From assembly GCA_025517465.1 (NCBI GenBank), contig JAOPKE010000001.1:682001-746000 (forward strand): a stretch of 64,000 nucleotides of DNA, given 5' to 3'. Positions 11,066-41,924 of this stretch are shown here, one piece after another. The notes under the pieces were generated by a model. The model saw only the letters and a list, made by a program, of their open reading frames with translations. It made no database searches and was not told where the DNA came from. Made by a program: the position numbers and the translations under genes. How positions within the stretch are numbered: position 1 is the first letter of the stretch; every line of letters starts with the position of its first letter. Source of the DNA: Halobacteria archaeon HArc-gm2 (GTDB lineage Archaea > Halobacteriota > Halobacteria > Halobacteriales > Haloarculaceae).

Positions 11066-11102
11066 GGAGACGCCAGGCGAGCGTAGCGAGCCTGGGGTCT
11101 CC
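11066..11102 (+). terminator. Strong hairpin at the end of gfcR
   Basis: GGAGAC/GTCTCC and CCAGGC/GCCTGG form a 12-bp stem with one G-G mismatch, closed by the 11-base loop GAGCGTAGCGA. It begins at the base after the gfcR stop codon. There is no T tract, so classical termination is uncertain. The loop belongs to the hairpin family seen elsewhere in the window. Confidence 0.6.
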
Positions 11103-11286
11103 GTAAATGCGAACGGCGAACGAAGTGACCCGTGAGCAGGAAGGTCTGCTCCTCACTTCGTTCGTCCCGGACCTTCTTGACATCGAACGGGGAACGAAGT
11201 GACCCGTGAGCAGCGGACTTCTTTGAGACCGAGCGGCGACCGCAGTGAGCCGAGCAGGAAGGTCCGGGACTGATTTTCGCGACTGA
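11103..11286. repeat. Cluster of short hairpins with conserved 11-nt loops
   Basis: Between the convergent gfcR and M24 genes. Clear copies are ACGGG-GAACGAAGTGA-CCCGT at 11187-11207 and CGGC-GACCGCAGTGA-GCCG at 11234-11252, with a weaker copy near 11114-11132 whose CGG/CCG stem has a C-C mismatch. The loops fit GANCGNAGYGA, while the stems differ yet remain self-complementary. No gene is visible in this stretch. Confidence 0.6.
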
Positions 11287-38297: not shown

Positions 38298-38632
38298 TCG
38301 ACCGGCGCTGCTTTTTCTCGCGACGTCTCAGTACGACCTTCGAGCAGTGCGAGCATCGGTCCGCACACCCGCTTCTTCCAGTCTCACGGCGACGGTAGAC
38401 GCCGACCTATCGAGTACGCTGGGTCGACCGGGTGCCATGGGATCTCTGCTGGTCGTAACCGACGTCGGTCCGTTCGATTCCGCACTCCTCAAACCTGGCG
38501 GTCGGTTCGAAGTTTCCACCGTCTGCACGAACCACGAGGCGCCGTAATCAGTCGGGAACTCCAGTCGGGATCGGATAAGACAACGGCGAAGAAACGAGGA
38601 GCGACGCTGCATCAGCGAAGACCGTTTCATGG
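38298..38632. other. Intergenic region after the Htr-like gene
   Basis: About 330 bases. Short frames on both strands lack any recognisable domain or start context. I see no convincing gene or strong repeat here. Confidence 0.5.
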
Positions 38633-38820
38633 TGGTGGTTGTACCTTTGTACCGGCGTTCGCCGGTACCGGCCACGTCGAACACCGGGAGACTCGCTTCA
38701 CTCCTCTCCCGAGCCCGGCCTCACGCGGTTCGGCCGGACGCCGACGGACTCGCTCTACTCGTCCGTCCAGCCCTGTCTCACTGCGCTCGACAGGACGCCG
38801 GCACGGGCTTACAACCATCA
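38633..38820. repeat. 188-bp hairpin-rich element with terminal inverted repeats (MITE-like)
   Basis: The ends, 38633-38659 and 38794-38820, are imperfect inverted repeats (19 of 27 positions). Inside are a palindrome GTACCGGCG-TT-CGCCGGTAC wait-free of mismatches (38649-38668) and two 57-bp tandem units, 38681-38737 and 38738-38794. Each unit holds two hairpins. Copy 1 stems are CGGGAGA/TCTCCCG and CCGGCC/GGCCGG; copy 2 stems are ACGGAC/GTCCGT and CCTGTC/GACAGG. The stems changed on both sides while the 11-base loops stayed similar (for example TCACTGCGCTC). Confidence 0.65.
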
Positions 38821-40473
38821 CTAACAGTGGCTTACTGTTCGAGTGCAGAATGCGACGGAAGTAAGTCTATTACCTGAAGAATCGAGGGGGAGGATACGAC
38901 TCACCGGACCGAGCAGGGACGAGTACCGTAGCTCTGCCAGATGACTCTCCGACGAAACGGGACTGCCCGTCGGCACCTGTCCCTCGTCGTCGACGGAGAT
39001 CAGTACTCGCAGCAGATGCTTTTCGACCCTCCTCACTGGTTCTCGTTTACCAACTGCCGCCCAGGTCAATCACATCGATGTATCTCGCTCAGACAAACCC
39101 ACGGACCGACGCGTGTGCAGTCCGCTGGATGTTTTCTGCCGGTCTACTGACCAAATTTTCGTGTAAGGGCCAATTATGTCGCTTCCAAAAGTACACAATC
39201 GACAAACGGATCGGTGAGGCCGAATCGGGTAGTAATAATTATAGTTTGTCTCATATAAGACGTACTGCTTGCGTATAGCGCTATACAGTTTACGAGTTCG
39301 ACATCCACCGTCTCAATTAGCAATCAACAACGAGTTTATTCGTTTAGAAACCTCTGAGATCGCCACTTCACATCCAGTCATATCTCGTTCGATCCTCGCT
39401 ACGCCGTCTTCGAGACATCCAAGTTCAGACTCACCACTGATCAGGAATTGGTTGTCGTGCCACGACCTATGGCGGTAGATCACTACGAGGCTTTGACGTC
39501 AGTAGGCCGGACCTGGAAGGGATCAGGCCATCGCGATCGCCATCGTATCGGAACTACTCTCGCAACCGAGTTCTGCTGAATCAGATGGTGAGCTGGGCGA
39601 CGTATCGGCTGCGCCGACGTGATGCCCCAGATACCCGTCTGGCCACGCGGATAATTCTCCCGCGTCTGAATCCATACTCGTGGACCTGGTACCTCGTCGA
39701 TACATCGTAGCCGTAAGTACCGTTGTGATGGCTCTCGATGGCAATGCGCCTGAGCAATGGTCTCTGAAGCTACCTTCCAGGTAACCTGCGCCCACCTACA
39801 CAGAAACGTCTCGTGACTCCCCAGCGGCCTCAGAACTGCCGCAATTCCTCTGAAGGCATCGGTACGTAGTGATCAAGTCGTTCGGATGCCACTGCAAGTC
39901 TGGCATGCCAGTGATCGGATACCGGATTTCGACGAAGCTCGACCATCCGAATTGCGTGGTCTGAACCACCACGATGCCGTCACCTGTCCAGTGTGAGGGT
40001 CTAGTGGGGCGGACAATAATCGGCATCCATGGCAAATGAGATTCTCTACGGAAGTTCTGTACCATTGGGCCAATCAGTCCAAAATCGATTTGGAGTTCGT
40101 GACGACGGTGGTTCGATGACAGGAGATTGGTGCGTCGTCATATTCGTCTCGTGACGTCTGTTTCCTGAGCCTCGAAGAAGTTCGAGACCTTGCATGACGG
40201 ATCTGTTCCTGGCTCTGCAATCTCTAGCATAGTAATGCGCTCTGACTTCCGTAACCGCGAGCAATTCGCGAATGCAAATCGGTGAGAGCTCCGAGGTGGC
40301 AAGCGCGACCGAAGACTATTATCTGTGTCCCTAAGTTTCATCGGTGAATTTGGGAGTTAGACACACAGATATAATCGACACAGACTGCCGAATTGGAATG
40401 CACTTCCACAAATAAGGGTCTTTATCTGGGTGATTGAGTTAGATTGATGTAACTGGGGGCCAAGCCATCGTAC
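38821..40473. other. Gene-poor, AT-richer stretch upstream of the recombinase operon
   Basis: About 1.65 kb with no frame I can support; base composition is clearly more AT-rich than the flanks, especially 39120-40470. A perfect 14-bp palindrome GTATAGCGCTATAC lies at 39273-39286. It could be decayed mobile DNA or a long non-coding control region of the recombinase operon. I could not identify a transposase, an att duplication or a tRNA. Confidence 0.45.
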
Positions 40474-40890
40474 ATGGCAAGCGACGGGTCCGTCGACACG
40501 GGCCGGGCACACGTTCAGACGTACGTGCCGGAATACCAGAAAGACGAGTGGGCCAGAGACGCCGAGGCGATGAACATGAGTCTGAGCGAGTTCGTCCGAT
40601 CGATGGTACAGGCCGGGAGGAGCGACATTTCGGTGGATACCGACGTTGCGTCAATCGAGCCTGCTGATGAAGCCGCTGCAGCCCCATCTTCGACGCCCGA
40701 ACCCCAGGGGTCGGGCCTGGAAGACCGGGTCGTCGATATCCTCGAATCGGACGAGTTCTACGACTGGGACGAACTGGTCGCTGCGTTGACCGACGACGTC
40801 GAGGAGCGTCTCGAAGACGCGCTCCAGGATCTGCAAGCCGATGGCCAGGTCCAGTACAGCGGCCGGAACGGGGGATACACGCTCGTATGA
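40474..40890 (+). CDS. DUF5805-like DNA-binding protein paired with recombinase
   Basis: 138 residues. Residues 10-48 (VQTYVPEYQKDEWARDAE, then MSLSEFVRSMVQAG) have the strand-helix-helix pattern of ribbon-helix-helix repressors. An acidic linker leads to a winged-helix-like domain (YDWDELVAALTDDVEERLEDAL) ending YTLV. I associate it with the haloarchaeal DUF5805 family. The stop codon overlaps the recombinase start in ATGA, so the two are translated together; a role as repressor or directionality factor is my inference. Confidence 0.75.
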   Translation: MASDGSVDTGRAHVQTYVPEYQKDEWARDAEAMNMSLSEFVRSMVQAGRSDISVDTDVASIEPADEAAAAPSSTPEPQGSGLEDRVVDILESDEFYDWDELVAALTDDVEERLEDALQDLQADGQVQYSGRNGGYTLV

Positions 40891-41924
40891 GCGCTCGAAA
40901 CGACACTGTCGGGGTGGACGACGATCCAGTCGAGTACTTCCTCGACGACGTCACCTACCACGGAAAGACCGAACGCACTCGTTCGTATTACGAACGCGTC
41001 CTCCGGGACTTCGAGGCGTTCCTCGGCGACGGGGCCCGCCCCGTCCCGCTGGCAGAAGCGAGCCATCGCGACTGCATGGCGTTCGTCCACGACCTCCGGG
41101 GCGACAAGAGCGAGTCCACCGTCGCCACGTACGCCTCCTATCTCCACCGGTTCTACGCCTACATGACGGAGGTCGGCGCATTCGACGCCAATCCGATGAC
41201 GCTCGTCATGGAGGAGATGGACGAGTCTATCAACACCGACCCTGCCCGTCGGGAGATCAGCGTCCCCGAAATGCGAGCGTTCGTGGCGGACGTCCGCCAC
41301 CCGCTGGAGCGGGCAATCGTCGTCACGTTCCTCAAGACCGGGATGCGTGTCGGGGAGCTGTGTAACCTGGACCTCAGAGACCTCCACCTCGAGTCGGGTC
41401 CGGCGGTCGGCGCCGACGTCCGCGTACAGATCGAATCACGTCCGGACTCGCTGTTCGTCTCTTCGGAACCTTCGCGGAACGTCGTCGTGAACGGCGAAGA
41501 ACGAACGGCTTCGAACAAGCGAAAACGGGACACCACGATTCCCGTCGACGACGAGCTCCGGCGGGCGTTACTCCGCTGGCTGACGATACGCCCCGACGCC
41601 CGCTCGTCGGCGGAACCGCTGTTTACGAGCACGCGAAGCGGCTGGGGAAAGCGGCTCACTCCGGACATGGTCCACCACATGGTGGAGACGCACGCCCGCG
41701 AGCGTGGCTGGTACCGAGACGGTGGCGGGGCAGCGGAGAACGTCACGCCACACTACTTCCGGCACTTCTTCACGACACACCTCCGGGATCGCACCGGCGA
41801 TAGAGGGATCGTGAAGTACCTCCGTGGCGACGTCGCCCAGGACGTCATCGATACGTACACCCACGAATGGGGCGATCGCGTCCGGTCAGAGTACCTCGCG
41901 AACGTCTACGAACTGGGGGTGTGA
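40887..41924 (+). CDS. Tyrosine recombinase/integrase (XerC/D-like)
   Basis: 345 residues. An N-terminal SAM-like core-binding domain (about 10-100, TERTRSYYERVLRDFEAFL) precedes the catalytic domain. It has Arg in KTGMRVGELCNLDL, HYFRHFFTTHL (HxxR) near 295 and the nucleophile Tyr in IDTYTHEWGD near 325. All active residues seem present, so the enzyme should be functional. No flanking att repeat or tRNA is visible; it may be a chromosomal resolvase-type protein rather than a mobile-element integrase. Confidence 0.9.
   Translation: MSARNDTVGVDDDPVEYFLDDVTYHGKTERTRSYYERVLRDFEAFLGDGARPVPLAEASHRDCMAFVHDLRGDKSESTVATYASYLHRFYAYMTEVGAFDANPMTLVMEEMDESINTDPARREISVPEMRAFVADVRHPLERAIVVTFLKTGMRVGELCNLDLRDLHLESGPAVGADVRVQIESRPDSLFVSSEPSRNVVVNGEERTASNKRKRDTTIPVDDELRRALLRWLTIRPDARSSAEPLFTSTRSGWGKRLTPDMVHHMVETHARERGWYRDGGGAAENVTPHYFRHFFTTHLRDRTGDRGIVKYLRGDVAQDVIDTYTHEWGDRVRSEYLANVYELGV

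Follow-up and report, generated by a model that had tools for sequence, protein, structure and literature searches.

A decayed MITE copy with two double-hairpin units

The feature under study lies in a 64,000-nucleotide stretch of the genome of Halobacteria archaeon HArc-gm2 (here called the window) and is a degraded copy of a very small haloarchaeal MITE that carries 57-base double-hairpin modules. The copy occupies positions 38630 to 38823 on the minus strand, and its length of 194 bp corresponds to 80 + 2 × 57; its ends and size class are common to about 75 copies. A preliminary description of the window had recognized the element and placed it at 38633 to 38820, limits that the other copies move to those given here. 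Read 5′ to 3′ on the minus strand, the copy consists of the terminal repeat TAGTGATGGTTGTAAGCCCGTGCCGGC, two 57-bp units, the core GTTCGACGTGGCCGG..., and the second terminal repeat. The unit-proximal terminal inverted repeat (38797 to 38823, minus strand) holds the CGGC insertion target at its 3′ end, and pairwise comparison of both ends matched it to the distal repeat TGGTGGTGGTTGTACCTTTGTACCGGC (38630 to 38656, plus strand) at 19 of 27 bases, exactly as had been described. The core (GTTCGACGTGG..., 38657 to 38682, minus strand) runs from the array to the distal terminal repeat, and an identical core is found 3′ of the array in most long copies.

The two tandem units, each with two hairpins as first reported, both lie on the minus strand. 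Unit 1 (38740 to 38796; covariance model R1, 68.9 bits, E = 8.4e-13) comprises hairpin A at 38770 to 38796, where GTCCTGTC and GACAGGGC enclose the loop GA-GC-GCA-GT-GA, and hairpin B at 38742 to 38768, where GGACGGAC and GTCCGTCG enclose GA-GT-AGA-GC-GA. Unit 2 (38683 to 38739; R1, 69.8 bits, E = 5.5e-13) comprises hairpin A at 38713 to 38739 (GTCCGGCC, GA-AC-CGC-GT-GA, GGCCGGGC) and hairpin B at 38685 to 38711 (CGGGAGAG, GA-GT-GAA-GC-GA, GTCTCCCG). The minus strand of the copy folds at −104.7 kcal/mol (z = −4.8), a value equaled or bettered by 0 of 200 shuffles, and the plus strand gives a folding z of −3.6.

The target duplication at this site has decayed: the trinucleotide TCA (TGA on the minus strand) remains at 38627 to 38629, its partner at 38824 to 38826 has mutated to ACA, and no stop codon is recognizable. 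The orthologous region of a sister genome is intergenic and strongly diverged, and the copy, being itself decayed, is informative only through its relatives. An Rfam scan of the window locus returned no family. Elsewhere in the window, a lone hairpin of the GA-loop type at 11071 to 11117 scored weakly against the unit model (23.5 bits, E = 0.0034). A tyrosine recombinase gene (Phage_integrase) adjoining a DUF5805 gene lies 2 kb from the element at 40887 to 41924, with no evident link to it.

MITE copies concentrate at TGA stop codons

The proposal that the feature is a small, MITE-like mobile element, which depended on further copies being found, was borne out: local BLAST returned 102 matches to the element in its own genome (4.25 Mb). 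The observation is real and belongs to a larger system. What was first described as a single element proves to be two, one nested in the other: a MITE confined essentially to two Halomicrobium genomes and a 57-bp double-hairpin unit that occurs across the Halobacteria.

The MITE could be delimited in about 75 copies over the HArc-gm2 genome and its sister (G006, 93 to 96% identical). Its basic form is 80 bp with terminal repeats TAGTGGTGGTTGTAA; this is also the commonest length (40 of the ~75 copies), within a range of 58 to 365 bp. The terminal repeat TAGTGGTSGTTGTAA occurred 57 times forward and 60 times reverse in the HArc-gm2 genome, compared to 3 and 2 times for the reversed control pattern. 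Short, multicopy, and without coding capacity, and with its terminal repeats and target duplication, the 80-bp element has the properties of a MITE, an autonomous partner apart. Among 146 genomes of the family, the exact terminal repeat was frequent only in these two, and the exact MITE pattern had no match in 84,980 genomes with the own clade masked. A degenerate relative is present on a plasmid of Haloarcula marina; phage sequences gave no match. Some copies combine the usual ends with an odd core (L117 and L128, 58 bp; L125 and L134, 66 bp; L121, L122, and L126, 106 to 107 bp), and all of these are flanked by TGA/TCA.

Identical 3-bp flanks were present in 63 of the 75 copies and were always TGA (TCA in the other orientation), with TGA read towards the gene. 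By a mechanical ORF test based on length and codon-position GC, approximately 56 of the 75 copies coincide exactly with a TGA that ends a coding-like ORF in frame. For comparison, in-frame stops accounted for 20 of 365 non-coding TGA (~6%) and 6 of 91 CTGA in the window, a background drawn from that one 64-kb stretch. The preferred target is C-TGA-G, where C precedes TGA in 83% versus 47% and G follows in 60% versus 29%. The sister genome offers two empty sites, GCCGACTGA|CGCTCG (GACTGA|CGCTCG) and GAGGACTGA|GCACC (GACTGA|GCACC), which confirm both MITE ends and the duplication. As the target TGA is copied to both sides, an insertion at a stop codon leaves the gene with a stop, which makes this an unusually harmless target choice for a transposon. 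The cue may be DNA sequence, the end of transcription, or the end of translation.

No transposase with the ends of the MITE was found among the PF01609 transposases of both genomes. The PF01609 hits were rejected as its source, one being an ISH1-like IS5 insertion sequence at 869 to 2359 of locus L217 in the sister genome, which is bounded by GGCTCTGTTGAAATCC and flanked by the 8-bp duplication AATTGAGC.

The double-hairpin fold is maintained

Each unit consists, in order, of hairpin A, a T, hairpin B, and GC; both stems are 8 bp long, and that of A has a conserved U-G. Each 11-base loop is made up of GA, 2 bases, 3 bases, 2 bases, and GA. The 11-base loops of the preliminary description are better read as GA, a 2-bp pair closing a 3-nt loop, and GA, because the inner pair covaries.

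Covariation was assessed on 32 distinct units picked by their position in MITE copies, with pairing not required. Stem position A3 was paired in 30 of the 32 (shuffled mean 12.5, maximum 24) and the inner loop pair of hairpin B in all 32 (shuffled maximum 28), while the tandem GA/GA bases were nearly invariant. Across 47 units, 94.9% of cells were paired compared to 80.2% after shuffling, so the stems do stay complementary in other copies, as the preliminary description had needed them to; 0 of 500 shuffles matched the whole structure. The covariation score of these units, with G-U pairs allowed, was 0.442 versus 0.148 when shuffled, with slid controls at ≤0.06. These data show that the hairpin fold is maintained and that the tandem GA/GA opposition belongs to it. 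In DNA, both mini-hairpins of the d(GCGAAGC) type and tandem GA pairs in the sheared form have very high stability. A kink-turn reading was rejected for want of an asymmetric bulge, and a reading as a CGTC-tagged REP was rejected as the GTC is base-paired.

The unit occurs on its own across the haloarchaea

The covariance-model search of haloarchaeal genomes that had been suggested located units in 124 of 146 family genomes and in 215 of 292 class genomes (≥90% complete), representing 63 of 76 genera, with copies per genome counted as at least the number found. A strict DNA pattern of the unit matched 53 stretches among 84,980 species genomes, all of them haloarchaeal bar one in a Salinivenus MAG; this single unit in a bacterial assembly (L180, 2862 to 2917) reflects transfer or mis-binning.

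Solitary units are orientated one way at CGGC^G. At 78 array loci, many of them gathered with patterns in which part of the unit is fixed and the flanks are free, the base pattern was C-G-G-C^G: positions −3 and +1 were each G in 76 loci, and position −4 was C in 61. Since units themselves end in CGGC or CGGT, a 4-bp repeat is possible. Exact empty sites were seen for the tnpB of ISNma12 (CCAATCGGC^GTCCGCT, compared to 48-bp inserts in three relatives) and for an IS5 transposase gene (TATGGC^GGTCG in the HArc-gm2 genome, compared to a 56-bp insert in Hmc. urmianum).

Units also lie in frame within protein genes. One in alanyl-tRNA synthetase (AlaRS) appears as a gap against 3wqy, and others are in TrpE, CobW, a histidine kinase ATPase domain (HATPase), and TnpB. 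In an AMP-binding enzyme (AMP-binding_C), the unit contributes 19 extra residues, giving 95 residues on a 76-position model. The usual phase 0 may follow from GGC GTC being a Gly-Val codon pair. Antisense insertions within the coding frame were seen at L101 and in TnpB.

Arrays differ by whole hairpin modules

Lengths of the long MITE copies are quantized: 137, 194, 251, 308, and 365 bp equal 80 + 57n, where n is the number of units lodged head to tail at CGGC^G in the MITE core. The CCGGC^GTTCG of the 80-bp MITE is accordingly the empty site relative to 137-bp copies. The hairpins in these arrays fall into a restricted number of stem-loop types, which reappear at numerous loci and are combined as A and B in many ways.

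Orthologous arrays of the two sister genomes were compared. At L021/L084 the number of units is equal and several hairpins are swapped, at L015/L079 there are one and two units, at L023/L082 the site is common to both and the interior is inverted, and at L016/L221 the counts are four and three, and a given A type lies at one end of the array in one genome and at the other end in its sister. Since sister arrays differ by whole modules and by 57-bp steps, paired stem changes are best interpreted as module differences. The stem changes on both sides between the two window units had been taken as compensation that points to selected folding. Covariation supports this for the family as a whole; between the two units themselves, in-place compensation is not the likely route: hairpin modules are shuffled among loci, and exchange of whole hairpin modules most likely accounts for the differences rather than stepwise compensation. 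When tandem hairpins differ on both sides of a stem, module exchange may therefore be the cause, and such differences should not be taken as independent compensatory mutations.

A probable nested pair of mobile elements and alternatives to it

We consider it probable that the locus represents a nested, non-coding mobile pair, in which an 80-bp MITE moved in trans hosts a 57-bp double hairpin that inserts at CGGC^G. A putative DDE-type transposase acting in trans would move the MITE, with a 3-bp staggered cut at C-TGA-G. A separate, orientation-specific process would add double hairpins 3′ of CGGC, a site that the MITE core holds. As the unit ends in CGGC or CGGT, further units could be added, lost, or exchanged alongside to give head-to-tail arrays, which recombination between units would then shuffle and trim. 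Hairpins would be kept because they need to fold in single-stranded DNA, with the GA/GA mismatch and the inner pair as candidate recognition features.

For the unit, the most likely enzyme would be of the HUH type (IS200/IS605-like), supplied in trans. In having two subterminal hairpins, one constant orientation, and an insertion site just 3′ of a tetranucleotide, the unit resembles IS200/IS605-type single-strand transposition. Ten loci for Y1 transposases (IS200/IS605 tnpA) in three Halomicrobium genomes contained no unit and no GA-loop hairpin, and their end palindromes differ, so the HUH assignment is one by anatomy only. A broader claim, which we advance tentatively and think rather doubtful, is that the unit is a class-wide single-stranded-DNA element with a dedicated enzyme at CGGC^G, which builds self-targeted brick arrays, adds in-frame 19-residue peptides to essential proteins, and was captured in Halomicrobium by a stop-codon-coupled transposon.

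The concentration at stop codons could be a survivor effect, in which the transposase takes any CTNAG and selection removes insertions outside stops. Haloarchaeal genes often end in the near-palindrome C-TGA-G (GAC TGA), and insertions in coding sequence would be lethal or costly; with non-coding TGA outnumbering stop TGA by ~18:1 (~15:1 for CTGA), however, stops would need a survival advantage of tens-fold over other intergenic DNA. This explanation is possible, although we do not lean towards it. The arrays, for their part, might be ordinary tandem repeats shaped by unequal crossing-over and gene conversion only, the double hairpin having no insertion machinery of its own and riding on MITEs or other transposons. 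Steps of exactly 57 bp, modules swapped between orthologous arrays (L021/L084, L016/L221), and junction microhomology (GGCGTC) all fit this, and the differences between sister arrays, which unequal recombination can explain as well, count against growth by insertion. Against it, single units occupy CGGC^G, all orientated alike, at 78 distinct places, among them genes with exact empty sites and species without the MITE, which makes it unlikely as the full account.

Whether the hairpins act as DNA or RNA was weighed in the same way. As RNA, they could be 3′-UTR stabilizers, terminators, or processing sites behind stop codons, given the strong fold, covariation in which G-U is allowed, and a location directly after stop codons. 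Against such a role, the orientation of arrays to the targeted gene is random (8 same versus 7 opposite), which argues for DNA rather than sense RNA; the GA/GA mismatch is found on one strand only, copies within coding sequence use either strand, and the majority of MITE copies lack any unit. We regard the RNA reading as improbable. Still less probable is that templated quasi-palindrome correction during replication, rather than selection, keeps the stems complementary. Such correction is known to change both sides in one event, yet it would give GA/TC, and what is nearly invariant is GA/GA, the top class of 11-base loops outside arrays as well (16 of 71).

Relation to described elements

The nearest kinds of elements are MITEs such as BrickBuilt, REP and Rickettsia palindromic elements (RPEs), and haloarchaeal PATEs, and none of them matches in full. 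A literature search, with most subscription journals outside its scope, found no description of this element. The closest composite is BrickBuilt, a MITE of Porphyromonas gingivalis with 23-nt bricks that is always intergenic, 49 to 591 nt from genes (PMC4596501). It likewise has an interior of tandem short units, many copies, and a limited host range; it differs in being bacterial, in having no stop-codon target, and in that no brick is reported independently across a whole class (PMC4596501).

MITEs, SMRs, and PATEs of Haloquadratum are also short, non-coding haloarchaeal mobile repeats, and the 80-bp MITE recalls the size of SMRs, which measure 80 to 110 bp, make no target duplication, and target PATEs (PMC3119063). 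Identity with SMRs was rejected as the MITE makes a 3-bp TGA duplication (PMC3119063). The 57-bp unit recalls PATEs in its near-terminal palindromes, the two hairpins filling the unit, and in its lack of terminal inverted repeats (PMC3119063). PATEs, however, are related to the end palindromes of IS605 (PMC3119063) and have IS605-type ends, whereas the unit showed no IS605 link at the ten Y1 loci of the three genomes.

REP elements are GTAG- and CGTC-tagged, are associated with RAYT transposases, and resemble the unit as short palindromes in dimers and clusters at intergenic and intragenic sites (PMC3733652). The unit differs in lacking GTAG, in its 11-base GA/GA loops compared to 4 to 5 bases in REPs, and in its head-to-tail arrangement with a fixed 57-bp period (PMC3733652). 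GTCC at the unit boundary is paired in 46 to 47 of 47 units, unlike the unpaired REP tag, and no RAYT-like tyrosine transposase flanked by units was found in three genomes. RPEs are palindromic DNA in frame within unrelated genes (PMC10969869, PMC3733652). In-frame insertion in protein genes is common to both; RPEs differ in length and domain of life, and the double hairpin at CGGC^G is a feature of the unit. The strict unit pattern had no match in Rickettsia among the 84,980 genomes. The resemblances to PATEs, REPs, and RPEs are functional, and none of the three is matched in every defining feature. With the unit, Archaea have a counterpart of the Rickettsia elements, tied to a hairpin anatomy whose insertion sites can be measured.

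Sequence contexts of units in other genomes

At 18 related loci, Rfam identified tRNAs only. Two units sit immediately 5′ of a tRNA gene, at the site GCCGGT, and leave the tRNA intact (L166, 2901 to 2975; L193, 1100 to 1174). Others lie in a long conserved intergenic block common to several genera (L202, L203, L206, and L207 in Natrinema, Haloterrigena, and Natribaculum; also L158 and L198), which has no Rfam match and is possibly an undescribed structured RNA.

The context AAAAACGTG-unit-GGCGAAAAA recurs in several genera (L159, L162, L174, L175, L179, L189, L190, and L196), which suggests that the unit is part of a larger repeat. A further dispersed repeat region at ~3850 to 4150 of L016 has many matches in Hmc. 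urmianum (G005) and the sister genome, and GA-loop hairpins such as GGTGGCCCGAACGAAGTGAGGGCCACC lie in or near it. In Halosimplex salinum, a long dispersed repeat surrounds the units at L161, L165, L168, L173, L187, L191, L192, L201, and L208, with GGTTGGGGAGG upstream and GGACTGAAAGGGCGAGGCGCG downstream of the unit.
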